DNA from: Gammaproteobacteria bacterium
GTDB lineage: Bacteria; Pseudomonadota; Gammaproteobacteria; JAADJB01
Length of the DNA stretch: 63,216 bases
NCBI GenBank assembly: GCA_013151035.1
Contig: JAADJB010000020.1
Coordinates: 1-63,216 of the forward strand
Direction of reading: 5' to 3'
In this document: in pieces, positions 34,914-52,687 of the stretch
Layout: each line of letters begins with the position of its first letter
Position numbering within the stretch: position 1 is the stretch's first letter
The notes under the pieces: model-generated
The model's input: the letters and a program-made list of their open reading frames with translations, nothing else
Told to the model about the DNA's origin: nothing
The model's database searches: none
Made by a program: the position numbers and the translations under genes

Positions 34914-35324
34914 TTATGGTCTCAACTGTTGTTTCAACAACCTGTAACGGGCGGCATATTCTTGCGTACCCGCTTGAGCAATCACACTATCCAGCTGTTT
35001 AAGGTAATCCACTGCACTAATCCTGTCATCCAGCTTGAGTGAGACTTCGGTCAGATTAATCAGAGCCTCGGCCTGCCCCTGACGATATTGTTGCTGCTGA
35101 TAGATAGCCAGGCTCTTACCAAACATCCAGCTGGCACCTTTGTAGTTCCCCTCACGATAGGACTGAACACCTATACGCATATACTTACTCGCCATCTCAA
35201 TACGACTGGAGAAAAACCCTGTGCTGGATTCAGCATTATTGGATGGTATCGGTGCCTGTGAGCTACAGGCTGTGACAGATAGCATTAGCAATAAAATCTG
35301 GCAATGACGCAAGACGCTATTCAT
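34914..35324 (-). CDS. Small TPR-like lipoprotein of the Mla-type locus
   Basis: This 136-residue protein has a lipoprotein signal peptide (LLMLSVTAC, lipid Cys20). It then forms helical pairs resembling one or two tetratricopeptide repeats (GVQSYREGNYKGASWMFGKS; GQAEALINLTEVSLKLDD). It overlaps the mlaD-like gene by 8 bp, so it belongs to the transporter operon, perhaps as an outer-membrane partner in place of MlaA/VacJ. No family was recognised. Confidence 0.72.
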   Translation of the reverse strand: MNSVLRHCQILLLMLSVTACSSQAPIPSNNAESSTGFFSSRIEMASKYMRIGVQSYREGNYKGASWMFGKSLAIYQQQQYRQGQAEALINLTEVSLKLDDRISAVDYLKQLDSVIAQAGTQEYAARYRLLKQQLRP

Positions 35325-36330
35325 CAGCTGTTCCCTTGATCAAGGTCTGAGTCGATGGCTTTTTAACCACGCCGTCCAATGGCCAGGAGGTCTCAATCGC
35401 GGTTAATACACGTTCAAACTGTTCCATCAATAAATTAACTCGCAATAACATATCGGGATAATTGGTCATCTGCGCGCCCACATCATCAAGTTGATGATGG
35501 AGTGTGCCGACTGTCTGCTGCATACCACCAATCATGCCGCGTATATCCTTTATTACTGGCTCACCCTGCTCTGCCAACACAGCAGAAAAACGGGTTAATG
35601 GTTTAAGTTCCAACATGCGTTGCTCACCCTCTGTCAGCACCCGTTCCATAGAACTCATCATGGCGGATAGACGCAAACGAAACGCCTCAACCGAGGCTTC
35701 ATCATCAATCACAATTAAAGCAGTTAAACGCTCTAAGCGAGACATTGCCTTGGCGGTATCCTCTACAATACCCGACAAACCTTGTAAACCCTCGGGACGA
35801 ATAATGCTATTCAATGAGACCAGGGTTTTTTGTAGCTCCATCAATGCAGGCACTGCAGTTGCAATCATATCCTCCAGTACTGCCTGATTTTTCACCGGTA
35901 TCGTACTGCCACCGATAATCATTCCACTCACTGCACTGCCGGGCACAATCTCAATGGAGGCATTACCCAATACCGATAAACGTCGCAGGGCCGCACTGGC
36001 ATCACGATAGATCCAACGCTGATAACGCTCAAAGACCTGCATCACCACCTTGATCTGATTATTCTCTGTCGGTTCAATCGAGCCAATATTCCCCACCTCA
36101 ATACCGGACATCATAACCTTACCTTCCTGGGTCACGCCCTGTGCATTCTGCACATAAAACACCAGATCAAAACGCGGCTCAAATAAATCCCGCATACCAC
36201 TACTAAAGAACAACAGCGCCAGCAGAACACCGGCACCAATCACAATAAAGAAACCAACCACGCGTTCCTTCTGGGTATAACTCAAACGATGAATATAATG
36301 AATCGTCGGATCGGGCGTTCTATCAGTCAT
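35317..36330 (-). CDS. mlaD: MCE/MlaD-family lipid transport protein
   Basis: This 337-residue protein has one N-terminal TM (about 22-42) then an MCE domain (about 50-130: FDLVFYVQNAQGVTQEGKVMM). A long helical C-terminal segment (about 160-310) follows that would form a tube or needle. It is longer than E. coli MlaD (183 aa), more like plant or mycobacterial-style single-MCE proteins. It should bind phospholipids between the membranes. Its start abuts the ATPase stop. Confidence 0.85.
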   Translation of the reverse strand: MTDRTPDPTIHYIHRLSYTQKERVVGFFIVIGAGVLLALLFFSSGMRDLFEPRFDLVFYVQNAQGVTQEGKVMMSGIEVGNIGSIEPTENNQIKVVMQVFERYQRWIYRDASAALRRLSVLGNASIEIVPGSAVSGMIIGGSTIPVKNQAVLEDMIATAVPALMELQKTLVSLNSIIRPEGLQGLSGIVEDTAKAMSRLERLTALIVIDDEASVEAFRLRLSAMMSSMERVLTEGEQRMLELKPLTRFSAVLAEQGEPVIKDIRGMIGGMQQTVGTLHHQLDDVGAQMTNYPDMLLRVNLLMEQFERVLTAIETSWPLDGVVKKPSTQTLIKGTADE

Positions 36331-37125
36331 CTACTCTACCATCTCATGTCTATGCCCCTGCCCCGCGGTACCTTGTATTACATCCGGGTGCAAGAAGGCT
36401 TGTATTTCCTGATCTGAATCATTCTCTAACTCGGACCAGGACTTGTAGTAACGCATCCCTTGCGGATGCGAAAAGATTATATTATCGGCATGCATACGAA
36501 TAAATGGAATATTATGCGTCACTACCACCAGGGTCAAACCATCCTTACGCACCAGATCCACCAGGTTGGCAAGAAAAACTTGTCGACACGGGGTATCCAG
36601 TGGCTCTGCCGGTTCATCAATCATTAATACCTCTGGCTCCAGGATCAATGCACGCGCCAGTGCTAACACCCTGTTTTGTGGCTCCGAGGCATGACCTGGT
36701 AACAAAGCCAGATCTTCAACCGAGCCTAATCTTTCGATCAGTGCGCGTGCCTTCGCCTCGACCTCTTCATCATTGCCCATGCCATGATAAAGCGCGGGTA
36801 ACATCACATTTCTCAAACCATTCATTACCGATAGCAGGGGGGCGGACTCAGTAATAAAACCGACCTTCTTACGCAGCTCCCACCAGACCTTTTCACCCGC
36901 ATGCCAGACATCCTTACCGAGTAAATGCAGCTCACCATCATAGGGTTTATCCACTGCACCTAGTGCTCTAAGATAAGTGGTCTTGCCACAATTATAAGGC
37001 CCCATCAGACAGGTAATGGTATGGCTATCAATCACACAATCCAGTGGCCGGGGCTCCCACAGTTGATTAGCACTACGATCAGGGACCAAGCCCTTGGCCT
37101 CAATGACGATGCGCTGATTCTTCAT
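36331..37125 (-). CDS. mlaF: ABC transporter ATPase, MlaF-like with a degenerate signature
   Basis: This 264-residue ATPase has Walker A GPYNCGKTT (42-50), Walker B VLMIDEPAEPLD (about 170-181) and H-loop VVVTHN. The ABC signature, normally LSGGQ, reads ASEPQNRVLALARAL, so the Ser-Gly-Gly core is missing. It overlaps the permease by 4 bp and abuts mlaD. With MlaE it should drive lipid movement, but hydrolysis may be altered. A Q-loop is seen near FITES. Confidence 0.83.
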   Translation of the reverse strand: MKNQRIVIEAKGLVPDRSANQLWEPRPLDCVIDSHTITCLMGPYNCGKTTYLRALGAVDKPYDGELHLLGKDVWHAGEKVWWELRKKVGFITESAPLLSVMNGLRNVMLPALYHGMGNDEEVEAKARALIERLGSVEDLALLPGHASEPQNRVLALARALILEPEVLMIDEPAEPLDTPCRQVFLANLVDLVRKDGLTLVVVTHNIPFIRMHADNIIFSHPQGMRYYKSWSELENDSDQEIQAFLHPDVIQGTAGQGHRHEMVE

Positions 37126-37904
37126 CGTGTTGCCGCCACAATCAAACCATCCAGAATAAAGATCATCACCAGGGCATTAATCATTGCACTTTGCGTTTGC
37201 TGCGGTAACTCAGTAGGTGAATGCCGCACACGAAAACCATGAAAACAGGCGGTTGAACCAATAATCAAACCAAACATCAGATTCTTCAGGATAAAAATGG
37301 CAATCAATGGCCCCTCAAAGGTACTCAACAAGGGTTCCATATAGCCGAAATATCGATTGGAGATAAAGAAACCACTAAACAGGATACCACCGAGCACGGC
37401 AATGCCGGAAAAATAAACCGCTAACATCAGTTGTGATACTGCAACGGCAATCAAACGCGGCGTAACAAAAAAGGTACTGGCATGAATCCCCAGTAATTCC
37501 AGTGACTCAATCTCCTTGCGTAGCTGCATCCCACCCAGATCCACCGTAATGGCTGAACCCACACGTCCGATCAATACAATCGCCGTCAACAGCACACTGA
37601 ACTCATTCACCATCACGGTAACCAACGCCCGACTCACATCAGCCGCCGAACTGACATCACCGAGCAGCACAATAATCTCTGAGGTGACACCCATGGCAAC
37701 CACTGCGCCTAACAGCGTAATCGCGGGTAGCGTATCGATACCGGTAAAGATAAACTGATTTAACAAAGAGCCGGAAAAGGCATATTTTGCTGGCGCACCA
37801 ATGCTACTCCAACCACGAACAGCACGCAGAATAAAGGCACTCAAATAAACGAAATATAATGCCCGATCTATTGCCCAGCGACCCAGGCTATCGATACTAT
37901 GCAC
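37122..37904 (-). CDS. mlaE: MlaE-family ABC permease
   Basis: This 260-residue inner-membrane permease has about five TM helices. The MlaE hallmarks are QFIFTGIDTLPAITLLGAVVA and a central AIVLIGRVGSAITVDLGGMQ with ELLGIHAS. It is first in a four-gene operon (permease, ATPase, MCE, lipoprotein). No MlaB (STAS) or MlaC gene is present here. Confidence 0.88.
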   Translation of the reverse strand: MHSIDSLGRWAIDRALYFVYLSAFILRAVRGWSSIGAPAKYAFSGSLLNQFIFTGIDTLPAITLLGAVVAMGVTSEIIVLLGDVSSAADVSRALVTVMVNEFSVLLTAIVLIGRVGSAITVDLGGMQLRKEIESLELLGIHASTFFVTPRLIAVAVSQLMLAVYFSGIAVLGGILFSGFFISNRYFGYMEPLLSTFEGPLIAIFILKNLMFGLIIGSTACFHGFRVRHSPTELPQQTQSAMINALVMIFILDGLIVAATR

Positions 37905-39527: not shown

Positions 39528-39548
39528 GGTGCGTAATACGCACCCTAC
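39528..39548 (-). repeat. Family A repeat at the 3' end of the cyclase gene
   Basis: GGTGCGTAATACGCACC followed by CTAC. The TAG stop of the cyclase (39545-39547 on the minus strand) comes from this repeat. Confidence 0.8.
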
Positions 39549-41857
39549 TTGCTGGTCAGTGTCGTCACTCCATCCCAATCATCAGGTGGTGGGGTCTCCA
39601 GATAGTGACGACAACGCGTAATATATTCTTCACAGGTCTTGTCATTCGGATGTTGCTCAAGACTCTCTTCCAGTAATGCCTTTGCGGTAGAAAAATCATG
39701 CCCCTGAAAAGCTGTTATCGCCTCTTGCCAGCGTATCAGATAGGCTTCATTATCCCGCTCGCCCTTGCGACAACAGAGTTCATAAATACGAATAGGCACC
39801 TTCTTGCCTTTAACCCGTACCAGATCCAGGAAACGGAAATCAAAATGTTCCTGCACCTGTTCGTAGCTCGCTTCGCTGACGACAATATCCACGCCATACA
39901 TCTTGCTCAGGCCTTCTAACCGTGATGCCAGATTCACGTTATCACCTAACGCGGTATAGGCAAAACGAAAACTGGAACCCAGATTACCCACCACCACCTC
40001 GCCGGTATGCACACCCACACCGATCTTGATGGGAAACAGATGCGCCAGTTCCGGGCAACAATCGACCACATGATCCAGTGCCTCAATCATTATTATTGCA
40101 GTATTACAGGCATCCAGCGGATGATTTTCAGTGGGGTATGGTGCGCCAAACAATGCCATCACTGCATCACCAATATACTTATCCAGGGTACCATTATTAT
40201 CCAGCACCGCTGCTGTCATGGGGTCCATATAACAATTCAGAAAACGCGCTAATTGCTGCGGCGTAAGATTCTCCGAAAGATTGGTAAAACTACGGATATC
40301 TGAAAACAACAGGGTGATATTTTTATTCTCACCACCAAACTGCAATAACTCGGGATTCCTGGTCAACTGGTCCACCAAACCTGGATGCAAATAAGACTTA
40401 AAGGCAGAACGCACCGTTGAATAACTACGTTCAACGGCTACAGTAAAATAGAGCGTTAACATTAAATAGGACAAGAACCACGCCATCACAGGATAGATTA
40501 AAATAATCCACAATTGCTGATGTGCAAATAAATAATAATTAAGAACAACATAGGCGAGTAGCAGGGCAAGCGAGAATATAAAACGACCCAACATAGTGTT
40601 AAGGCGTGGTAACACTATGACCAATACCATGACCAGAATAAACATGGTGACCAGATCCAGTAGAATATCAATGTTAGTGCGTTGCAAAGGACGGCCATGT
40701 TGCATAATCGCCAAGGTCTCAGCCGATATCCCTGATTGATCATCCAACGACAGATTACTAATCATGTCAGCAAGAATATTGTCAGCAACATTGGCCTGTA
40801 TCTCCAGCCCTGGAAAAGTCGGCCCAAAGGGTGTGCTATGCGCGTCATAGACCCCAATTGCCGTCACCCCTAACAACACCAGCTTGCCCTCCAGGGCACC
40901 CGCAGGTGCTTTTCCATGCAAGACATCCACTGCGGAATAGGTGGGGATCGTTCCTCTAGGGCCACGATAATTAATGACCATGCTGCCACCCTCGTCCACC
41001 TTAACCTTATTGCCACCCACCGAGAGATGGGTCAAACCATACTCTTCGGCATAGACCACTAAAGGAGCATCGCCAAAATAATGCACAATGCCTTTTAATG
41101 CCAATGATGGATAGAACTGATCGTGATAACGCATCACCAACGGTGCCTTACGGATCACACCATCGGCACCCGGAGGGAAATTAAAATAACCAGCACCCAG
41201 ACCCACACCGGCAATCAAGGGAATATTAGTTTCCACTCCATAGGCATCACGCGCTGGAAAATCTTCCACCCGCGCACGGATTGCAGTCACCGCTGAACTA
41301 GCTAACAACAAGCTCTCTTCATCGATGGGTATCGGAGTCAGGTTCTCGATCTGTTTCTCGCTGGTATAAAAAAATTGCCCGTTGACGACGTTACCAAACT
41401 CCATAATGGTACCCGCCAAAACTTCATCTGCCGAGCGCATATCCACACCTTGCAATAACTGTTCATACAGATTGACATCCCGTGCCTTTCTCGCCTCAAT
41501 CTGCTCCATGATCAAATTACGTTCGGGTTCGGAAAAAACAATGTCCAGCGCAATCACAGCAGCCCCCTGCTGATTCATCGCCCTGATCATGTCAGCAATA
41601 ACGGTACGCGACCACGGCCAGCGCCCCACTGTCTCCAGACTAACATCATCCACTGCCACAATAACAACTTGGTTAGTGACTGCAATCGGGCCACGCATAC
41701 GGAAACGCGCATCCAGCAGACGACCTTCGATATCGGTCAAGGATTGGGAATCAGAGAAATAGGCAGCCAGACAGATAACAAAAATAATAAAGCCTATCAG
41801 ATAACTGGTTAGCTGAATCTTGCGTGGACTGGGTGGTGGTTTTAAGTGTGCATCCAT
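39545..41857 (-). CDS. CHASE2-domain adenylate/guanylate cyclase (class III)
   Basis: This 770-residue membrane sensor makes cAMP or cGMP. TM1 is at about 18-38. A periplasmic CHASE2 domain spans about 50-370 (PIAVTNQVVIVAVDDVSLETVGRWPW; MVINYRGPRGTIPTYSAVDVL). Three TMs lie at about 395-480. The class III cyclase domain spans about 505-690, with metal Asp520 in LLFSDIRSFT and Asp564 in YIGDAVMALFG. LDKYIGD carries the Lys usually linked to ATP specificity. A short C-terminal helical tail resembles a TPR stub. It is the last gene of a minus-strand operon with FecR and HYR genes. Confidence 0.9.
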   Translation of the reverse strand: MDAHLKPPPSPRKIQLTSYLIGFIIFVICLAAYFSDSQSLTDIEGRLLDARFRMRGPIAVTNQVVIVAVDDVSLETVGRWPWSRTVIADMIRAMNQQGAAVIALDIVFSEPERNLIMEQIEARKARDVNLYEQLLQGVDMRSADEVLAGTIMEFGNVVNGQFFYTSEKQIENLTPIPIDEESLLLASSAVTAIRARVEDFPARDAYGVETNIPLIAGVGLGAGYFNFPPGADGVIRKAPLVMRYHDQFYPSLALKGIVHYFGDAPLVVYAEEYGLTHLSVGGNKVKVDEGGSMVINYRGPRGTIPTYSAVDVLHGKAPAGALEGKLVLLGVTAIGVYDAHSTPFGPTFPGLEIQANVADNILADMISNLSLDDQSGISAETLAIMQHGRPLQRTNIDILLDLVTMFILVMVLVIVLPRLNTMLGRFIFSLALLLAYVVLNYYLFAHQQLWIILIYPVMAWFLSYLMLTLYFTVAVERSYSTVRSAFKSYLHPGLVDQLTRNPELLQFGGENKNITLLFSDIRSFTNLSENLTPQQLARFLNCYMDPMTAAVLDNNGTLDKYIGDAVMALFGAPYPTENHPLDACNTAIIMIEALDHVVDCCPELAHLFPIKIGVGVHTGEVVVGNLGSSFRFAYTALGDNVNLASRLEGLSKMYGVDIVVSEASYEQVQEHFDFRFLDLVRVKGKKVPIRIYELCCRKGERDNEAYLIRWQEAITAFQGHDFSTAKALLEESLEQHPNDKTCEEYITRCRHYLETPPPDDWDGVTTLTSK

Positions 41858-41864
41858 TGATTTA

Positions 41865-41888
41865 TTGGTGCGTGGTATGCACCCTACC
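41865..41888 (-). repeat. Family A repeat between the 228-aa gene and the cyclase
   Basis: TTGGTGCGTGGTATGCACC with CTACC. The upstream gene's TAG stop (41884-41886 on the minus strand) lies in it. It ends 8 bp before the cyclase ATG, so it forms the cyclase leader. Confidence 0.8.
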
Positions 41889-42567
41889 GGTTATTTTTCA
41901 CAGCGATGAGTGATAGATTCAGCAATTGATTGCGGCCTTTAATTGTTCCATCCTTGCTTGATATCATATAACGTCCGGGGATATTAAACTGCCTTTTATT
42001 ATTATCCAATACTATCTTTTTCGCCACCAGGCGATAGTCCGGCTGTTCAATTGTCACCATCTGCATCGCAGTTTGTTGACTGCGCAGATCCAGGTTTGCT
42101 GTCTTTGCCTGTATTACAAGATCGGGGGTATCGCTTTGATGGATATTAATCGTCAAACCATCAATGCTGGCACTATTGACGATACCTGCCAGTTTGTTTA
42201 ATAACTGTTTGTCCAATACCAGTTGGTGCAGAGCTAAAAAGGGATCAGGGGTATCCGCTGATCTATCCTGATGAATATAGATGTCCAGCACCACATCCTT
42301 GAGTTGCGCCTCCAGCACCCGATTAATATTAAACACCAGATACTTCTTTGGTCGCATTAAAAAAGAGCCCGCCTCAATCCTTGAGGAGACTCTTTTATCG
42401 TATTGTATGGATTCAATATATCGTAACTGCAAGCGAAGCTGCGGGTTTACCTGAACCGGCATATCAACTGATTCGTTAGCACCCTCCCGCAAATAAAACC
42501 CGGCAACCAGAACACCCAATATCAACAAGACCAATAATAGCCCCTGCAACCGCTGCCGAGCCACCAT
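41884..42567 (-). CDS. Membrane-anchored periplasmic protein of unknown function
   Basis: This 227-residue protein has an N-terminal TM (LLLVLLILGVLVAGFYL) then a soluble periplasmic part that looks beta-rich (QPDYRLVAKKIVLDNNKRQF; GRYMISSKDGTIKGRN). The shape recalls LptC/YrbK-like proteins, but I cannot confirm this. I chose the ATG at 42567, with AGGG 5 nt upstream overlapping the stop of the preceding HYR gene; a TTG one codon earlier is possible. It is embedded in the FecR/HYR/CHASE2 operon. Confidence 0.7.
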   Translation of the reverse strand: MVARQRLQGLLLVLLILGVLVAGFYLREGANESVDMPVQVNPQLRLQLRYIESIQYDKRVSSRIEAGSFLMRPKKYLVFNINRVLEAQLKDVVLDIYIHQDRSADTPDPFLALHQLVLDKQLLNKLAGIVNSASIDGLTINIHQSDTPDLVIQAKTANLDLRSQQTAMQMVTIEQPDYRLVAKKIVLDNNKRQFNIPGRYMISSKDGTIKGRNQLLNLSLIAVKNNR

Positions 42568-42573
42568 CAAACC

Positions 42574-45500
42574 CTACCAGTTCGAAGCCTGGGTCGTAAG
42601 CTGAATACCATTGACTACGCTACCAGATCCATTCTCATCAGCATAGGCATCAATCAACAGGAAGTCACCCATACCGGCCCATAAAGAACCGCCTGCAGGG
42701 GAATTAGGATTCAGTGCATCCACAACCGAACTCATTAAAGAGGAACTCCAGTCAAAATACTGCCCCCAGATAACACCCACAAACGGATCAACGTAACAAT
42801 TCGAAAGTGCTATGCTACAACTGTATTCCAGCACATCGAAAATGGCCTCCATATCACCAATATAACCTCCGTTATCCACCACCTTGATCAAGTAATGCTT
42901 ATAGGCTCCACTAAAGACTGTTGTGGTATTGGTTGATTCAGCAACACCCAGCGAGGTAAAACCATTCGCCTCAGGATCAGCGGCAATGACAATATATTCA
43001 CCCTCGGTTAAACTGGAAATATCGTTTCTATCGGTGCCGAACACCTCATACAAATTGCTCTGAAAGATATCTGCGGTGCTATTATTATCTCGATCTCGAT
43101 CCAGTACATCGGCAGGAGCTTGCCCCTCCAGTTGCACCAATAAACCACCGAGGTCACTATTGCCCGGCAGGAAACCTGTCATATTATCACCAGCAAAGGC
43201 AGGTAGAACATCGGCTCTGATATCCACACTATCCAGCTTGGTTAGATCCAACTTGTCATCATCCGAAGGATCATTCAGATCATTATCATTGGATATACAA
43301 ACTGCGCCCAAACATGCCAGCAGATCATCCGCAGTGGTAATCGCATGCGCAATCTCTAGCGCATCCATTATGATCAGATCATTCGCCTGGTCATCACTCT
43401 CACCCTGAATAGCTAATGCGGCTGCCTTACTATCATTCATTGCTGCAATAAAGTAATCACGCATCATCGAGTTTTCATACCCTGGCAAGCGGGTTAATGC
43501 AGAGGGATAAGCGGCTAAAAATGCCTGCGTAGTAATGGGATTATTATGCAAATCATCAATATCCGCCGCTGCCATATCATGTGCCAGAATACTCATAAGC
43601 AGATTAGCCAGCCCCGCATTCATTGATGAACGCAGGAATAATACATCACCATAATCCGATTCAAGATTAACATCGGTGTGTGTATTATTCGGATTACGTA
43701 GCGATGTCCAGCTCATGTTGAAACTAGTGGAGATGGCATCCAGGTTGGCAACAGCACCCACCAGTTCCGGTTTTAATGTGTTGGTCAAAAAGTCCTGCAC
43801 ATCGCTTGCTGTAGGTGAACCCACAGGATAGACATTAGGGCTTGAACCACCCGTATCACTCACACAGGTCATACTGGAATTCGTTTCATGCAGCGGCGCA
43901 TCCGCACTACAACCAAAGCCATTAAGCAGGTCTGCAATATTAGTCAAGGGGTTGCCGGTCAATACACCCACATTAGAGTCTACCGCCATAACACGACTAA
44001 AAGCATACATGAAGTTTGCCATATCCCGTTCATTATCGACCACAGGCTGCCCAACATTCGGGCCATAATTAATCCTTGATAGAGCGGCCCGGCACTGGTC
44101 AGCCGCCAATAAATAATCACCTGTTGATATATCCTCCTGACACAGACCAAGGGAACCCACCATAACTTCCTGGGTTTCTGTTGTCTCATTGCCGGATGCA
44201 TCGGTTGCCATCCAGGTGACGGTGGTCAAACCCAATGGAAATTCTGAGTTTAAAGGTATATCTGTTGTCTCTGCAACCACTCCGGTATCGACATCATCAT
44301 CGGCATAGACTGCACTCAGATCAACATAGGTTTTTACATCCTGTGCCTCAATCGAGATATCAGAAAAAGCCAGTATCACCGGTGGGATAGTATCCACCAG
44401 GGTCACCAACTGGGCCTTGATTGAGCTATGAGTATTGGCATCGGTTGCCGTCCAGATAACGGTGGTATCACCTAACGGGAAATCGGTAGGAGCATTACTG
44501 GTAACCGTTACCACAAAGGCATCGGTTGCCGCTGGTGGAGTCAAGACGAGGGGCGTATCAGGCCCGGTCGCCTCCTCAATAATATCATCCAGTGGCAGGA
44601 CTTCGGTAAACACAGGATCCGTCGTATCCTGCAGGGTAACCAGCTGGGTTATGGTTGAATAATTACCATTGGCATCGGTTGCTGTCCAGGTTACTGTGGT
44701 GTTACCCAATGGAAAACTTGCCGGTGCATTACTGGTGACAGTCAGCGTAAAGATATCGCTTGCTGTTGGCGGAGTCAGGGTGAGTGACGTATTAACAGCA
44801 CTAGCCTCCTCGATGACTGCTGACAATGGCAGATTATCAAATATCGGTGGCAGATTATCCACCATAGAAACCACTTGTGTCGTTGTTGCGCTATTACCCT
44901 CCGCATCGCTCGCCGTCCAGGTCACCGTGGTATTACCCACCGGGAAGGCCGCAGGGGCATCACTGCTGATAGAGACCGCACTAGAGTCATCGGTTGCTGT
45001 TGGCGAATCTAGAGTTAGAGGTGTAGCCACACCGATAGCTTCCACTATCACAGCAGTTAATGGCAGATTATCAAATACCGGTGCTGTTACATTCGCAGCA
45101 ACCGTCACCTGAACGAGCCCACTGACCTGTGCCCCATTCAGATCCGCAATGGTCACTAAAAAGGAATCGCTAGCCCCACTCGCTGGGGCAACATAAGTGA
45201 TCACACCATTAGCAAGGTAACTGTTACCATTCTCCGGCTCACCGACAGACACAACCGTAAATACAGCATTTTCATCCGCATTAACAATGGTCAGATCAGC
45301 CACAGCAATGTCCACACTCTGAGAGGTGGGAACAGAGACTGTACCACTCACTCTACCCGGTATCATTACAAAACGAGGATAACCATCAGTAGTTGCATCA
45401 CGTCCATCCAGATAATCAGAGACACCATCACCATCCGCATCCTGATCATTGGAGTTAGGGAAGCCATCATTATCAATATCGGGTAGTCCGGTAACCGGGT

Positions 45501-46152
45501 TCAGAAACAGGTCTTCATAATAATCACAAAAACTATCCCCGTCTGTATCAACACAGGGAACCGACGGGTTGTCCATCACTGTTTGCTCGATAGCCGTATC
45601 AATATCCACTGCCATCGGTACCGACAATGCTACATCGGCCTGTTCAAGTGCCCCCACACTCAGTGAAGAAACACCCCTGAACAACTGGAAACCATCAGCG
45701 TTAAACGCCTCAACAATAAAGGTCAGCGCCACGTTATTAGGCACATTAAGACTAACCTCAGTCTCCTCAACCCTGATTGCATTTTCATTATCGACATCCA
45801 GTGTAAAGCGATTACTATTATAGTCGGCATTGATCGAGGCCGAGGTCACACCGGTACCGGTAATATGCAGAGCAACATAACTCAAGCCGGTATTGCTCGC
45901 ACTTAATAGCACGGCATGGGCATCACTAATCAACTGCGACAACACCATCTGTATCAGCTTATCACGCGTGGATTCAACACGCGCAAATTGATAAGGCAGG
46001 GTGACATCATTGGCAGCCACCTGCTGCGGTGCCAGATTAATAGTAACCTGCGTAGTACCCGCCGCACCACCTGAAACACCACCGCCACCACAGGCTGTGA
46101 GAGCCAATACCGCAATCAGTGCCAAACATCTTTTCATTATTTTCATCTTCAT
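42574..46152 (-). CDS. Large HYR/thrombospondin-3 surface lipoprotein
   Basis: This 1192-residue protein has a lipoprotein signal (LIAVLALTAC) with a GGGGVSGG tether after the lipid Cys. An N-terminal beta domain spans about 30-190. A calcium-binding thrombospondin type 3 stretch (DTDGDSFCDYYED, DIDNDGFPNSNDQDADGDGV) lies near 198-250. A cadherin-like domain precedes four HYR/Ig-like repeats (about 350-680), each with FPLGNTTVTWTATDA-type sequence and DTT/VDN linkers. The C-terminal half (about 690-1192) is unrecognised and Asp/Asn-rich. ATGs at 46152 and 46137 are both possible starts. It is probably on the outer leaflet or surface. Confidence 0.8.
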   Translation of the reverse strand: MKMKIMKRCLALIAVLALTACGGGGVSGGAAGTTQVTINLAPQQVAANDVTLPYQFARVESTRDKLIQMVLSQLISDAHAVLLSASNTGLSYVALHITGTGVTSASINADYNSNRFTLDVDNENAIRVEETEVSLNVPNNVALTFIVEAFNADGFQLFRGVSSLSVGALEQADVALSVPMAVDIDTAIEQTVMDNPSVPCVDTDGDSFCDYYEDLFLNPVTGLPDIDNDGFPNSNDQDADGDGVSDYLDGRDATTDGYPRFVMIPGRVSGTVSVPTSQSVDIAVADLTIVNADENAVFTVVSVGEPENGNSYLANGVITYVAPASGASDSFLVTIADLNGAQVSGLVQVTVAANVTAPVFDNLPLTAVIVEAIGVATPLTLDSPTATDDSSAVSISSDAPAAFPVGNTTVTWTASDAEGNSATTTQVVSMVDNLPPIFDNLPLSAVIEEASAVNTSLTLTPPTASDIFTLTVTSNAPASFPLGNTTVTWTATDANGNYSTITQLVTLQDTTDPVFTEVLPLDDIIEEATGPDTPLVLTPPAATDAFVVTVTSNAPTDFPLGDTTVIWTATDANTHSSIKAQLVTLVDTIPPVILAFSDISIEAQDVKTYVDLSAVYADDDVDTGVVAETTDIPLNSEFPLGLTTVTWMATDASGNETTETQEVMVGSLGLCQEDISTGDYLLAADQCRAALSRINYGPNVGQPVVDNERDMANFMYAFSRVMAVDSNVGVLTGNPLTNIADLLNGFGCSADAPLHETNSSMTCVSDTGGSSPNVYPVGSPTASDVQDFLTNTLKPELVGAVANLDAISTSFNMSWTSLRNPNNTHTDVNLESDYGDVLFLRSSMNAGLANLLMSILAHDMAAADIDDLHNNPITTQAFLAAYPSALTRLPGYENSMMRDYFIAAMNDSKAAALAIQGESDDQANDLIIMDALEIAHAITTADDLLACLGAVCISNDNDLNDPSDDDKLDLTKLDSVDIRADVLPAFAGDNMTGFLPGNSDLGGLLVQLEGQAPADVLDRDRDNNSTADIFQSNLYEVFGTDRNDISSLTEGEYIVIAADPEANGFTSLGVAESTNTTTVFSGAYKHYLIKVVDNGGYIGDMEAIFDVLEYSCSIALSNCYVDPFVGVIWGQYFDWSSSLMSSVVDALNPNSPAGGSLWAGMGDFLLIDAYADENGSGSVVNGIQLTTQASNW

Positions 46153-46155
46153 ACC

Positions 46156-46240
46156 ATTTCAAGGGGTCAGAGCTCTTGAAAGCTCAAAACTTTCATACCA
46201 TTCATATCAATTCCATTCAAGAGCTCTGACCCCTTGAAAT
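46156..46240. repeat. Perfect 25-bp inverted repeat filling the fecR-HYR gap
   Basis: The arms 46156-46180 and 46216-46240 are exactly complementary and contain AAGGGGTCAGAGCTCTTGAA, with a 35-nt AT-rich loop. On the mRNA the 3' arm ends 3 nt before the HYR lipoprotein ATG, so the hairpin would cover its ribosome site. The GGGGTCAGAG core resembles dispersed repeats seen beside REP-associated transposases in other genomes. Confidence 0.92.
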
Positions 46241-46244
46241 TTTC

Positions 46245-47201
46245 TTATGGCGCAGTGATTGTAGGGATCTCGATGACAATAGGAATCGTTACTGAATTAA
46301 CGAGAATATCCTCTTGCACATCCTGTTCATTAACAATGGCATCCTGAGGACTCAGTGTTTCCTCAAGTGGCACAAGATCAAAGGATCGACCCTGTTGACC
46401 CAGAGCACCACTCACAGGGGCTTGTGGCTCAAATATAGGCACATCAACACCAGTGCTGCCACCTAGTACCTGATCTGCCTCAGCCTGCTGTAAGGCATCA
46501 CCGTCATTGGCATCATGTCCTGAATCGCCATCGTCAGCACTATGCCTGCCGCCGGAACCAGAACCACCACTTCTTCTATGCGAAACATCATCCTCAGGTG
46601 CAATATGAAGCGGATTCTCAGGTGGGTGTTCGGCATCCACCATAGTGAAGGTATCATGCATCAACAAGACCTCACCCAGTACACCCTCAACCAGACTATG
46701 AACCGCTACAACCCCCTCAAAACTACGCACCAGGGTTTCACCATCATGAACCACCAACACTTCAAAATCGGTACCACGCACACCGGCAACAGCCACTGAG
46801 GTATGAATCTCATAGTGTGAATTAGCGGATAGTTTTTTACCAATGACTGAACGTAGACGACCTTTGATCAGATCAACCGTGGTCTTGCTGTCATTATTCC
46901 TGCCCACCACCATCTCATTAACCTTCAATTCACTGGAAGGCCCTACCTTGAGGATACTGCTATCACTCAACAACAACTTGGCCTGACTACCAACACCAGT
47001 AATAATCCGGTCATTCAGATAAATCAAACTCTTGAATGCCAATGGCTGACGTGCATTATTCTCACTACGCACCACATCAACAGCGCCAATCACAGAGACT
47101 ACTCGTGCCACTTGATCCTTTGCCCAGGTGACACTACTCAATAGCACCAACACTGCACACAAAAGCGTTCTTAACCCCTGTTGTCTTATCATGGCTGCCA
47201 C
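46245..47201 (-). CDS. FecR-domain periplasmic protein
   Basis: This 318-residue exported protein has a signal peptide at 1-27 (ends VTWA-KD). A FecR domain covers about 30-170 (LIYLNDRIITGVGSQAKLLL; SVAVAGVRGTDFEVLV). An Asp/Ser/Gly-rich linker (about 205-240) and an acidic C-terminal tail follow. This is the soluble SH3-like FecR type usually found near TPR or CHASE2 proteins, not the sigma-regulator membrane type. Its start overlaps the TPR-barrel gene by 13 bp. Confidence 0.86.
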   Translation of the reverse strand: MAAMIRQQGLRTLLCAVLVLLSSVTWAKDQVARVVSVIGAVDVVRSENNARQPLAFKSLIYLNDRIITGVGSQAKLLLSDSSILKVGPSSELKVNEMVVGRNNDSKTTVDLIKGRLRSVIGKKLSANSHYEIHTSVAVAGVRGTDFEVLVVHDGETLVRSFEGVVAVHSLVEGVLGEVLLMHDTFTMVDAEHPPENPLHIAPEDDVSHRRSGGSGSGGRHSADDGDSGHDANDGDALQQAEADQVLGGSTGVDVPIFEPQAPVSGALGQQGRSFDLVPLEETLSPQDAIVNEQDVQEDILVNSVTIPIVIEIPTITAP

Positions 47202-48685
47202 CTCAATGTTCCAAATATTGTACGTCTGTTATAGTCATTCGCGGTCTGGTTGGATGGGTTCCAGGTATAACTCGCCAGCACCTCAAACTCCAGATCTTTT
47301 GCCACCGGCATAGTCACACCCAGACTCAGATCACGACGTTTATCGATACGCCCAAGCGGGGAATCATAGTAATCCTTACGTTCAATAGAAGCGCGTGCAT
47401 TCATCCGTATCTTGCGCCACAAACGTTGGGCACCAATCTCAGCATTCACCACCTTGTAGGCAACCGTTGCATCACCGCTACCCTCATCCTGCCACTTGCC
47501 ACCGAGGTAAACCCTGTTCTGCTGGTTAGCTTCATTAATCCAGTAATGGCGATAATGCACTATCTTGACCTTACCATCACGATTACCCGTGCCAGTACCG
47601 GTATTCAGATAATTATTGTTACGCCAAGTCAAACGCAACATAGACAGGCGTGAACCCTCATGGGATTGAATAAAATAAGGGTTAATGGTATTGGTCAACA
47701 GGTAATTATTGCCACCCAGCAAGGACTTGCTCATCTGGTAGGTCACACCCACGGAACCCGATGCCAGGCGACGACGCAAATCCAGTGAGAGCGCATGATT
47801 TTGTACATCATAGATATCCAGATCCTGATGCAAACTCTGGAATAAACGATAACCGGCACTCAGGGCATATTGCTGATTATCAAACAGGCGGTAATTGGCC
47901 GCCAGACCCAATTGAGTCCGCACATCATCACCCTTACCAATAGTGCCTACCGTTGGTTTATCCGGATCCGGGAACAGACCAACATTACTGTCATAGCCCC
48001 AGCCCAGGCTCACATTTACCTTAAAACGACGACTATCCTTCGCTGAGCCAATACGCGCCAACAACTCACGTGAGGGATTGACATAAACCGAGTCAGGATA
48101 ACGATTAACTGCCATCTCCAATACTTGCCGTGCCTCGCTATTACGCTGCAAATTAACCAGGGATTGACCCCGTAGATAACTGGCAACACCACCAAACTCA
48201 TCACTCAAACGAGCCGCCACCTGCAATGGTTTGAGACTCTCCTGATAATGCTTGTTCTGATAATAGACCAGACCCAGATAATAATTACTGGCAGCATGAT
48301 TAGGCTGCCCATCAACCGCCGCCTGCAAGGCAAGCTGAGCCTGATCAAGCTGCTCGGCACGGTAATAGGCAAAACCCAGCTCGAACAATAGATCCTTATA
48401 AGGCAAATTATAAGCACTTGCCAGCTTCAGATCCTCTGCTGCTGCCTGATAACGCCCCAAACGCGAAAGGGTTACACCACGATAATAGCGTGCATGCCCG
48501 TCACTGGCATCATCCTGCACCGCCAGATTGAGCATTTTCAAGGCGTCGTCATACGCCTTGTCAGAGAAGGAGAATAAGGCCTGGGTTCGGTACATCTCAG
48601 AGACCGTGGAGGCTCCGACAGAATTCATAAAAAATAGCGATAACAGGCACAGGCTGATCACCCGAAGATTGACAAGCATATCCAC
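47189..48685 (-). CDS. TPR protein with C-terminal outer-membrane beta-barrel
   Basis: This 498-residue protein has a signal peptide at about 1-25 (ends VGA-ST). Five or so tetratricopeptide repeats cover about 30-225 (DDALKMLNLAVQDDASDGHARYYRG type; EQLDQAQLALQAAVDGQPNH). The rest is barrel-like (about 235-498: LGWGYDSNVGLFPDPDKP; LSAGYRLFQSLHQDL; TIFGTLRWQP). The architecture resembles surface-lipoprotein assembly modulators (Slam) and exopolysaccharide PelB/BcsC-type exporters. It may translocate or assemble the HYR lipoprotein encoded downstream, which is inference. Confidence 0.8.
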   Translation of the reverse strand: MDMLVNLRVISLCLLSLFFMNSVGASTVSEMYRTQALFSFSDKAYDDALKMLNLAVQDDASDGHARYYRGVTLSRLGRYQAAAEDLKLASAYNLPYKDLLFELGFAYYRAEQLDQAQLALQAAVDGQPNHAASNYYLGLVYYQNKHYQESLKPLQVAARLSDEFGGVASYLRGQSLVNLQRNSEARQVLEMAVNRYPDSVYVNPSRELLARIGSAKDSRRFKVNVSLGWGYDSNVGLFPDPDKPTVGTIGKGDDVRTQLGLAANYRLFDNQQYALSAGYRLFQSLHQDLDIYDVQNHALSLDLRRRLASGSVGVTYQMSKSLLGGNNYLLTNTINPYFIQSHEGSRLSMLRLTWRNNNYLNTGTGTGNRDGKVKIVHYRHYWINEANQQNRVYLGGKWQDEGSGDATVAYKVVNAEIGAQRLWRKIRMNARASIERKDYYDSPLGRIDKRRDLSLGVTMPVAKDLEFEVLASYTWNPSNQTANDYNRRTIFGTLRWQP

Positions 48686-48764
48686 ACGTCCTCAATAGCA
48701 GAAAATTATAATAATTATTCAGGAGAGGATTATCACCACTAGCGCGTAAAATTGCAAATCACAA

Positions 48765-48870
48765 TGGTGCGTGGTACGCACCCTACCAAAAATCGCCCCA
48801 ACCGTGGTGCGTGGTACGCACCCTACCACAAACCACCATTCCAATCGGTAGGGTGCGCGTACCACGCACC
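48765..48870. repeat. Three family A repeats in the spacer before the Ig-like lipoprotein 3' end
   Basis: Copies at 48765-48787 and 48805-48827 face one way and 48846-48870 the other, giving alternative large hairpins. They lie downstream of the Ig-like lipoprotein and upstream of the TPR-barrel gene. Confidence 0.85.
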
Positions 48871-48877
48871 ACAAACC

Positions 48878-51800
48878 CTATGGCGTGATATAAGTAATCA
48901 CTGCAGTGGCATAGACACTACCATTCGGGCCATCGGCAACATAGGTTATCGTGGCGGAATCACCCGCCACCAAACCTGCTGGAATAGTTACCACAGATGT
49001 CGCCTGGCCGCTGACATCGGTTGCAGGCAAGGTCAGCGCGATCAGATCAGGCCAGATACCCAGACTATTATTACCTGAGCTATACTCAATGAAGGTCGTC
49101 ATGATGGTGCCGACAATCGGATTACCCAACTCATCCCGTAAGGTTAAGGTCACATCAGTATCTCCTGCCGCCGTAATCTGACTAAGATTCGCTACCAAAC
49201 TACCACCGGTATAACAGGTGTTACCGGTACCAAAGAGACTTGGATTACCCGGTGGTGGAGACGTCTTGACATTAACATCCGTGTTCAGAATGGGCAAAAT
49301 AAACTCAATACGATCACGTGACTCACTACCCACACCACCCACTGTTGCAGTTAGTTCAATCTGAACCCAACCCGCGTAGTCTTTAGCATAGATCAATGGA
49401 ATATTGGCAAAACCATTGGCATCCGTCGTCACCGTCACCGGTACACTAAGAATATTACCCGGTGTCAGCACGGCATCAACATTAATATCCTCACCCGCAT
49501 CAAGCAGACCATTGCGATCAATATCTTCTGATAGACAGCTTAAATTTTTAGCACCTGTTGCACCCGGTATGGTAAACACTGGTACCCATAGCTCAGCCGC
49601 CGCATCCCATACCCTATAACCTTTATCATAGAAAGTCGGGATGGCAGAGATAGTCACCTGTACATTGGGTACAGGGTTACCTGCCACACTAGTAACCAGT
49701 GCCTCATAATCCTTTTGATACAGGGTATTACTCAACGCCTCCATCAAGTTGCCGGTTGCCAGGCGCACAAATAATGCCTGTTCTGTTACTGTGAGATAAA
49801 CCGTATCCGTGACCAGGGGCAGACCCTGTGCTACGGCATTAATCACCACACCATTCAATGCCGTAGCACCCGCGCCTGAGGTAAAGGTGGTCGATGCCTG
49901 ACCAACACTATTGGTGGTTGCAGTCGCATTACTCAGACTACCCTGACTAATATCCACCAATTCAAATCGAACCACCTGATTCTTAACCAGGTTATCATTT
50001 ATATCACGCACAATGGCAGTAATAATTGCCTGCTGGGTTCCACTCTGATTACCATTATTGGGGGCTACCGTTGATATATCGGTCTGCAAATCAAGCCTGA
50101 CTGGCGCAATCGCAATAAACTCAATATCCACACTAGTGGTCGGCCCGCCATTATCCACATAGGCTGTAATCAGCGATGGCCCGGCATTGGTCGAGGATAT
50201 GTTTATTGAGGCATCACCACTGGCATCCGTCACCGCAGTTGATGCCAACAAGGTGCCTCGGGTAGCACTGAAGTTTACTGTTTGCCCTGCTTGTGCAATA
50301 CCATTACTCAGCCAACGTACAGTGACTATCTCATTAGCACCCAAATCAACCTCGGTGGCTGAGGCAGGTGTTAACACCTGAAAACTATCACTGGAAACAG
50401 CAATGGTATAAACAGCCGATACAGTCGCCACACCCAAGCTATTATCCATACTGGTAATCGTCAGGCTATCATTACCACTAGCCACATCCGCATTATAGGT
50501 TGCCAACACCTGACCGGCGGCATCCGTTACCAGTGTAACGGCTGTCACCGAATTACCCAGTGCCGAGGTAATCACCAAAATTTCTCCCACAATCGGCGCA
50601 GCTGTTGAGTCCGTCAGGGTTAAAGTCAAAGGCGTATTACCACTAAATGTCAACGCTGATTCACCATTCACCACAATACCGGTACCGGCAACATCCACAA
50701 CAATCGCGCTATTCTGGCTACCCGCCGTTGCCGTAACCACTATGCTACGATTCATGGTATCGCCACCCGTGGACAGAATCGCCAGCGCCTGACCGGCGGC
50801 ATCACTGGTCGCCTGAGTAACCTGAACAGCACCGCTATCAGCCACAAACACCACATCCACACCTTCCAGCAGATTATTGTTACTGTCTTTCACGATAGCA
50901 ATCAGATCAACGGTATCAGCACCCCCGGTACCCATCTGTGGCACATTGGATAACAGAATAATGCTATCAACCTCGGGCCCTGATACGGTTGCCACCACGC
51001 CTACGTTAATGGTCTTGGTAATCCCGCCACCGGTTGCCGTCACCAGGATAGTTCTAACCGTACTATCACCACCGGTTGACAAGGTAGCGGTGGCCTGACC
51101 ATTCGCATCCGAAGTACCCTGTGTAATCACAACTGCGCCGCTGTCGGCACTAAAACTAACCACCGCACCCTCAACAGCAACACTATTACTATCGGTCAGA
51201 ATAGCCGTCAGATCAATCGTATCCGCACTACCGGCCTGAATCTGGATGGTACTAGCCTGTAGATTCATTGTATTGACGCTAAGAGCAACATTCACCACAG
51301 CCACATCAACGGTTTTATTAACCCCACTAGCGGAGGCTGTTACCGTAATTGTCCTGGGAGTCGAGGCATTTGCCGCAACACCGAGTGTTGCCGTGGCGAT
51401 ACCATTCTCATCAGTAGTCCCCTGCGTGACAGCAACAAAGATGACGTTATCATTCGTCGTATCATCTGCAGCAAAACTAACAACAACGCCCTCAATAGCA
51501 ATATTATTGGCATCCACTGCCGTTGCTGTCAGGGTCACTGTACCACTACCATTTGCATTCAACTGCGCCGAACTGGTCTGCAACAAGATCGAGTCAATCG
51601 TCAGGGGCACGACTACATCCACCACATCCACCGTAATCTGAACAGGCACTAATGTACCGACATCCACTGTTACCGTTATCGTACGCGGTGTCGCATTACC
51701 TCCTGGAGTCAAGGTGGCAATCGCATTACCATTACTATCCGAGATAGGCTGATCAATAACAATCGAACCTGTATCCGGTGAAAAACTAACCACCGCACCT

Positions 51801-52687
51801 TCTATGGCAATACCATTAATATCCGTCAAAAACGCCGTTAATTTCACCTCATCACTGCCATCTGCACTAAGTTGAGCGGCACTAAGCTGCACATTCAGGG
51901 TGTTTACCGCAGCGGCAGCAGCGGCACCCACATCGACAACCGCAATATCAATGGTCTGATTGACACCACCTGCTGATGCCGTCACGGTGATCGTACCCGC
52001 TAGTGTTGTCAAAGTATCGATACTCAGCGTTACGGCAATCTCACCATTCGTATCAGTCGTCGCGGGATCTCCATTATTATCCACAGGAACGACGACCACA
52101 CCACCATTATCGGCTGTAAAACTAACCAGCACACCTTGCACAGCAACACCACCTGCCACCACCGGAACAACTGTCAAAGTTAGACTATCACTACCATCAA
52201 GGTTCAACTGTGATGCGCCAAGCCTCACAACCAGTGCATCCACAGTTGCACCCGCACCAAGATCCACCACAGTAACCACGGTGGTAACTGTCAACGTACC
52301 GACTTTTACTGTTGCCGTAATCGAGCGTAGCGCAGAATTTCCACCCGCATTTAAGGTGGCTATTGCCTTACCCGCACTATCCGAGGTGCCCTGGGTAATA
52401 ACAACCGAACCACTACTCGCTAAAAAACTAACCTCAGCATTTTCGACAGCCACCCCGTTGATATCCGTTAAAAACGCAGTCAGAGTTACCTCGTCACTGC
52501 TATCTGAATTCAATTGTGCAGCACTGGCCTGAACATTCAGGGTCACTACCGTCGTTGCCGGATCAACAACCAAACCGGCAGCAGGCTGATTAAAGGCACC
52601 GCCCCCACCGCCACCGCCGCCACAGGCACTCAGCAACAATAAGACAAACAAGACAGATACAGACTGAAAGAATTGACGCATGGTCAA
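48878..52687 (-). CDS. Giant Ig-like (Big_1/invasin-type) repeat lipoprotein
   Basis: This 1269-residue protein has a lipoprotein signal (LLLLSAC) followed by eight Gly as a flexible tether. About nine to ten Ig-like repeats of 90-100 residues follow. The first six are clearly homologous, each with the pattern LTAFLTDINGVAVEGAVVSF, then TSDANGQATATLS and a TVTASAGG-like strand. The C-terminal 300 residues have more diverged domains with four visible Cys (LSCLSEDIDRNG, GNTCYTGG). It is likely an adhesin or secretion cargo on the surface. It follows pilQ by 37 bp, where aroK is normally found. Confidence 0.82.
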   Translation of the reverse strand: MTMRQFFQSVSVLFVLLLLSACGGGGGGGGAFNQPAAGLVVDPATTVVTLNVQASAAQLNSDSSDEVTLTAFLTDINGVAVENAEVSFLASSGSVVITQGTSDSAGKAIATLNAGGNSALRSITATVKVGTLTVTTVVTVVDLGAGATVDALVVRLGASQLNLDGSDSLTLTVVPVVAGGVAVQGVLVSFTADNGGVVVVPVDNNGDPATTDTNGEIAVTLSIDTLTTLAGTITVTASAGGVNQTIDIAVVDVGAAAAAAVNTLNVQLSAAQLSADGSDEVKLTAFLTDINGIAIEGAVVSFSPDTGSIVIDQPISDSNGNAIATLTPGGNATPRTITVTVDVGTLVPVQITVDVVDVVVPLTIDSILLQTSSAQLNANGSGTVTLTATAVDANNIAIEGVVVSFAADDTTNDNVIFVAVTQGTTDENGIATATLGVAANASTPRTITVTASASGVNKTVDVAVVNVALSVNTMNLQASTIQIQAGSADTIDLTAILTDSNSVAVEGAVVSFSADSGAVVITQGTSDANGQATATLSTGGDSTVRTILVTATGGGITKTINVGVVATVSGPEVDSIILLSNVPQMGTGGADTVDLIAIVKDSNNNLLEGVDVVFVADSGAVQVTQATSDAAGQALAILSTGGDTMNRSIVVTATAGSQNSAIVVDVAGTGIVVNGESALTFSGNTPLTLTLTDSTAAPIVGEILVITSALGNSVTAVTLVTDAAGQVLATYNADVASGNDSLTITSMDNSLGVATVSAVYTIAVSSDSFQVLTPASATEVDLGANEIVTVRWLSNGIAQAGQTVNFSATRGTLLASTAVTDASGDASINISSTNAGPSLITAYVDNGGPTTSVDIEFIAIAPVRLDLQTDISTVAPNNGNQSGTQQAIITAIVRDINDNLVKNQVVRFELVDISQGSLSNATATTNSVGQASTTFTSGAGATALNGVVINAVAQGLPLVTDTVYLTVTEQALFVRLATGNLMEALSNTLYQKDYEALVTSVAGNPVPNVQVTISAIPTFYDKGYRVWDAAAELWVPVFTIPGATGAKNLSCLSEDIDRNGLLDAGEDINVDAVLTPGNILSVPVTVTTDANGFANIPLIYAKDYAGWVQIELTATVGGVGSESRDRIEFILPILNTDVNVKTSPPPGNPSLFGTGNTCYTGGSLVANLSQITAAGDTDVTLTLRDELGNPIVGTIMTTFIEYSSGNNSLGIWPDLIALTLPATDVSGQATSVVTIPAGLVAGDSATITYVADGPNGSVYATAVITYITP

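Follow-up and report, generated by a model that had tools for sequence, protein, structure and literature searches.

The question raised by this locus is whether five neighbouring genes, encoding a TPR-barrel, a FecR-domain protein, a large HYR lipoprotein, a small anchored protein and a CHASE2 class III cyclase, form one envelope-sensing system. They are located in a stretch of 63,216 nucleotides from a Gammaproteobacteria bacterium (contig JAADJB010000020.1), here named the window. The initial annotation, made from the letters alone, had described five minus-strand genes with these domains and proposed that the barrel exports or displays the lipoprotein, that FecR and the anchored protein sense its state and that the cyclase converts this into cAMP or cGMP. 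The ORF list confirmed all five collinear ORFs on the minus strand from 39545 to 48685 at these coordinates and in this order, Pfam supported the domains, and the codon-usage score favoured the annotated frame in 5 of 5 genes, including that of the 227-aa anchored protein. The features of the locus are:

48766..48827, no strand: repeated palindromes upstream of the barrel gene (two exact copies)
47189..48685, minus strand: protein of 498 aa with TPR and a predicted 14-stranded outer-membrane beta-barrel (TPR matches, E 1e-13; AlphaFold2 model)
46245..47192, minus strand: FecR-domain periplasmic protein of 315 aa (PF04773, E 5e-15)
46161..46235, no strand: repeated palindromic element between the FecR and lipoprotein genes (arm copies, hairpin energy)
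42574..46152, minus strand: large lipoprotein of 1192 aa with a lipobox, LTACG, in its sequence (HYR, E 9e-19)
45373..46152, minus strand: lipoprotein N-terminal domain, conserved in four other lipoproteins and carrying a TSP3-like calcium motif (sequence identity)
44149..45105, minus strand: HYR repeats of the lipoprotein (three HYR stretches in Pfam)
42577..44151, minus strand: C-terminal 525 residues of the lipoprotein, of no known family
41884..42567, minus strand: orphan protein of 227 aa with a single transmembrane helix at the N-terminus (codon score clearly best in this frame)
39545..41857, minus strand: CHASE2 class III cyclase of 770 aa, inner-membrane sensor and predicted adenylate cyclase (CHASE2, E 5e-56; Guanylate_cyc, E 9e-24; motifs)

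The FecR ORF runs from a GTG at 47201; the ATG at 47192, which gives the 315 aa, is the more likely start.

The output of the cluster was judged from the cyclase. According to Pfam its CHASE2 domain covers residues 28-366 and its Guanylate_cyc domain residues 511-687. The protein has retained the motifs FSDIRSFT, DKYIGDAVMALFG and YTALGDNVNLASRLE. In class III cyclases such motifs contain the aspartates that bind metal, the Lys/Thr pair seen in class IIIb adenylate cyclases and the Asn and Arg of the transition state. Since these motifs are present and the best sequence matches among solved structures were adenylate cyclases, cAMP is more likely to be the product than cGMP; of the two outputs suggested earlier a cyclic nucleotide is thus still expected, with cAMP preferred. 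The cyclase is the sole PF00211 protein and the sole class III cyclase of the genome, which encodes several cNMP-binding proteins. No second class III cyclase domain was found in this genome. A second CHASE2 protein (L104:1-1134, on G000:C37, G000 being the window's genome) is cut by the contig end, with its output domain beyond view.

Relatives of the cyclase at E <= 1e-40 were present in 139 of 369 Gammaproteobacteria. A first contig scan with the cyclase as query had found nothing. Sixty neighbourhoods were fetched, with the cyclase in view in 59. A FecR gene was located within 5 kb of the cyclase in 18 of the 59 loci and a TPR-barrel within 7 kb in 10, compared to less than one FecR neighbour expected if each genome is generously given three FecR genes (the measured mean is about one); the loci were chosen by similarity to the window cyclase and include some of the same genus and close pairs, so that these counts indicate enrichment and not an exact probability. 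Many CHASE2 cyclases of the family had no FecR in view. The nearest cyclase in the tree (L081) lies at a contig end with its upstream context beyond view. In the window's genome the sole FecR gene and the sole class III cyclase are found in one cluster, and the chance of their placement within 5 kb is about 0.6%. The window holds all parts of a barrel/TPR-FecR-CHASE2 cluster, namely a class III cyclase with a fused CHASE2 domain, a FecR gene and a TPR protein. The latter carries an outer-membrane barrel, which is homologous to those of other FecR-containing clusters (hhalign probability 99.3%).

The FecR proteins of other clusters (L038:11987-12754, L068:8398-9138 and others) share a C-terminal domain of about 200 aa with a WGRW motif. 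The alignment of this domain (A6) had no Pfam or PDB match, and both searches gave no support for the idea that it is a Slam-cargo barrel.

In several related loci a large exoprotein accompanies these genes. Between FecR and cyclase there is a HYR/PD40 exoprotein in L097, which has an extra 140-aa gene and a barrel and a cyclase each split over two frames, and a cadherin/TSP3 exoprotein in L068. In L058 (2998-13665) a filamentous-haemagglutinin-like exoprotein and a ShlB/FhaC-like two-partner-secretion transporter are encoded collinearly with FecR and CHASE2. L046 contains these genes too, but its cyclase is divergent. For both loci the two-partner-secretion assignment was read from the sequences and not from a profile search. 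The FecR protein of these two loci has two FecR-like segments. A large surface-type exoprotein is a recurring fourth partner of barrel, FecR and CHASE2.

In the lipoprotein of the window the HYR domains cover only about residues 350-668 of 1192, with 46-53% identity to HYR proteins in two other genomes (G056 and G192). The C-terminal 525 residues had no relative in 274 Gammaproteobacteria and no Pfam or PHROG match. About 250 N-terminal residues are common to this lipoprotein, three lipoproteins of SZUA-467 (G239) and an orphan paralogue in the window's genome, with 34-39% identity to these four and the motif DxDGDxxCDxYExLF...DIDxDG...DxDxDGDGVxD. The outer parts differ: HYR in the window, Big_9/cadherin and MAM in others, RCC1 repeats and a legume-lectin domain in the paralogue, which has 1791 aa (L101:10302-15677, on G000:C8) and no adjoining barrel. 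In SZUA-467 the trio of barrel, FecR and lipoprotein occurs three times in the same order, with the same barrel subfamily each time, the FecR homologue directly behind the barrel and no cyclase directly after; on contig C87 the closest cyclase follows about 18 kb further along and has its own FecR-like gene. A contig scan with the alignment of the lipoprotein N-terminus yielded 42 loci, of which two, both in SZUA-467, had an adjoining barrel and FecR, and most of the remaining ones match mainly the calcium motif of this domain. As far as can be read from the sequences, what is new here is this trio recurring in a second genome with a constant N-terminal domain and differing outer parts. Recognition of the lipoprotein by the barrel or FecR, if it takes place, would most likely involve the N-terminal part, because this constant part adjoins the lipid anchor.

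In FecA-FecR-FecI surface signalling the FecR domain is the periplasmic link below an outer-membrane barrel. The window shares this arrangement of FecR beneath a barrel; however, no TonB-dependent receptor domain was found by Pfam in its barrel, and the output of the cluster would be a cyclase instead of a sigma factor. Most CHASE2 cyclases of Campylobacterota are encoded in clusters together with FecR, TPR and phosphodiesterase proteins, for which a single pathway was proposed (PMC9239204). These clusters have the CHASE2 cyclase, the FecR-domain envelope protein and the TPR protein in common with the window, whereas the window adds the large lipoprotein and the small anchored protein and has no phosphodiesterase domain in the six proteins scanned with Pfam from 39545 to 52687. 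We count the phosphodiesterase as an additional gene and not as a defining part of such clusters. Clusters built on barrel, FecR and CHASE2 are already known as a type, and the recurrence of this core in related loci together with PMC9239204 bears out the view that these three belong together. For the version with a lipoprotein no description was found in the open-licence literature; the novelty claimed for the combination therefore holds, within the searches made, for the five-gene set and not for its core.

The S. meliloti barrel NsrA raises cAMP by way of CHASE2 cyclases (PMC7529298, PMC13001267). The order of outer-membrane barrel, inner-membrane CHASE2 cyclases and cAMP in NsrA - CyaK/CyaD1/CyaD2 - Clr (PMC7529298, PMC13001267, PMC5498481) is the one proposed for the window. 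The same infection-control phenotype depends in S. meliloti on a FecR protein, SMc02177, and the window has a FecR protein too. Perception of the tested signal, however, required neither SMc02177 nor the periplasmic SMc02178 (PMC5498481). No lipoprotein partner is reported for NsrA in the three publications, whereas the window has one.

On balance we lean towards reading the cluster as an envelope-spanning relay from a cell-surface event to cAMP. The enrichment of FecR and barrel near CHASE2, the three trios of SZUA-467 and the NsrA-CyaK and Campylobacterota precedents count for it. Further points in its favour are the sole FecR gene and sole class III cyclase sharing one cluster, the cNMP-binding proteins of the genome, the exoproteins between FecR and CHASE2 in L097 and L068, the two-partner-secretion versions in L058 and L046 and the homology of the window barrel to those of the other clusters. 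Against it stand the dispensability of SMc02177 and SMc02178 for perception (PMC5498481), the absence of a directly following cyclase from the SZUA-467 trios, the hairpins inside the operon and the many CHASE2 loci without FecR. We infer surface exposure, all protein contacts, the direction of signalling and cAMP as product as follows. The conserved N-terminal domain would anchor the lipoprotein in the outer membrane with the variable modules facing outwards, and the TPR-barrel, its TPRs reaching into the periplasm, would hold, display or perhaps export the lipoprotein. In the periplasm FecR would read the state of barrel or lipoprotein; the CHASE2 domain would take the signal from FecR and switch the cytoplasmic adenylate cyclase, and cAMP would act through CRP-like proteins, several of which are present in the genome.

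The 227-aa protein may be an accessory of this relay. The initial annotation had taken it as a sensing part of the system; conservation of this part is not borne out by the genomes searched: no relative was found in 274 Gammaproteobacteria, and PDB and PHROGs also gave nothing. Of the proposed co-occurrence, FecR, CHASE2, barrel and an exoprotein partner recur, but not this protein. It may be lineage-specific; the taxonomic order of the window is represented by this genome alone. Its matches to LptC/LptD_N were weak (E 0.01-0.016, under the cut-offs), and a single-sequence AlphaFold2 model reached a pLDDT of 38. One weak match inside a filamentous-haemagglutinin-like protein looks like chance.

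A different reading is that the barrel itself is the receptor, as thought for NsrA, and that the lipoprotein is a co-transcribed adhesin outside the signalling. NsrA, a predicted outer-membrane barrel receptor acting through CHASE2 cyclases (PMC7529298, PMC13001267), is the model for this, and many clusters of barrel, FecR and CHASE2, among them L038, L077 and L091, have no large lipoprotein. However, NsrA is far larger and has large acidic surface loops (PMC7529298), whereas the AlphaFold2 model of the window barrel (14-row alignment, mean pLDDT 89), with about a dozen TPR-type helices followed by 14 strands, has short loops of at most 21 residues. Furthermore, the lipoprotein gene follows FecR in four trio copies from two genomes, and we regard this reading as rather unlikely. 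A PDB fold search with the barrel led to BcsC, PelB, CymA and OmpG, by which an export role and a receptor role are not separated.

The combination of TPR and 14 strands is the architecture of Slam (PMC5449769), and the cluster could instead be a secretion unit in which a Slam-like barrel exports the lipoprotein, FecR is machinery or cargo and the cyclase encoded downstream responds to an input of its own. Slam, or the type XI secretion system (PMC5449769, PMC12282271), has a lipoprotein gene nearby as well; in the barrel family of the window 6 of 14 members matched SlipAM and 7 of 14 TPR_Slam, with two (L038 and L068) of the first six homologues scanned above the curated SlipAM cut-off, and the SZUA-467 trio lacks a directly adjacent cyclase. 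The window barrel itself, on the other hand, had no SlipAM/DUF560 (PF04575) match at E <= 1 in Pfam. It has a Slam-like architecture, yet is not filed as Slam because its own sequence lacks this match; the earlier comparison to Slam is upheld by the homologous barrels and not by this one. Slam cargo ends in a C-terminal 8-stranded barrel, whereas none was detected by Pfam in the window lipoprotein, whose conserved part is N-terminal. FecR and a cyclase are present in the window cluster and not mentioned in two papers on the type XI system, and the FecR-CHASE2 linkage is widespread without a lipoprotein. A pure secretion unit is therefore doubtful.

The spacing of the genes is tight only in part, contrary to the first description: the barrel and FecR genes overlap by ATGA and the gap between lipoprotein and anchor genes is 3 bp, but the FecR and lipoprotein genes are 92 bp apart, with a 25-bp inverted repeat taking up this gap, and the anchor and cyclase genes are separated by a second repeated palindrome. 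The palindrome at 46161-46235, AAGGGGTCAGAGCTCTTGAA, is a paired element with a predicted hairpin of -45.8 kcal/mol (z -8.9). The genome contains 43 copies of its arm, most of them arranged in close inverted pairs, and one such pair precedes a cNMP-binding gene (G000:C50:8622-8702). The second palindrome, GGTAGGGTGCGTACCACGCACC, has nine copies in the window from 15305 to 63118, several of them intergenic. Two or three adjacent transcription units without joint function (barrel-FecR, lipoprotein-anchor, cyclase), to which the strong hairpin and the palindrome before the cyclase would point, are nevertheless improbable, given that other families contain comparable gene sets and that the genome's only FecR and class III cyclase genes sit together.

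Upstream of the five-gene unit are a pilMNOPQ-like operon and a Big_1 lipoprotein gene, set apart from it by two repeated-palindrome copies; these palindromes at 48766..48827 are the probable upstream boundary of the unit. A terminator-like stem (48782-48766) and a promoter-like site (48758-48729) precede the barrel gene and lend this boundary weak support. The Big_1 (invasin-like) lipoprotein of 1269 aa is encoded at 48878-52687, directly after the pilQ-like secretin gene. Just downstream of the cyclase is a Mla/MCE-like operon (34914-37904; MlaE, ABC ATPase, MlaD and a small protein), with MoaA on the opposite strand in between. In other Gammaproteobacteria a clade of CHASE2 cyclases is found directly behind a MCE operon, beside PP2C and FHA-domain genes (L040, L043, L052, L070 and L085, some read from sequence and gene sizes only).

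Beyond the relay, the locus may belong to a modular system of surface display and report, which we put forward tentatively and as a minority view. Dedicated pairs of barrel and FecR would each manage a lipoprotein with a constant membrane-proximal domain and an exchangeable outer part, CHASE2 would report occupancy or export, and two-partner-secretion exoproteins would be wired alike. If this were true, such systems would share the use of a second messenger to monitor the export of surface proteins.

The locus combines a barrel, FecR, a cyclase and a surface lipoprotein of its own in a genome with a single FecR gene and a single class III cyclase, which makes it a clean setting for contact tests. 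The barrel receptor is known from S. meliloti, and the window cluster bears on the periplasmic link from a barrel to FecR-linked CHASE2 cyclases. Exchange of lipoprotein modules above a constant domain would account for the adaptation of a single relay to different surface ligands.
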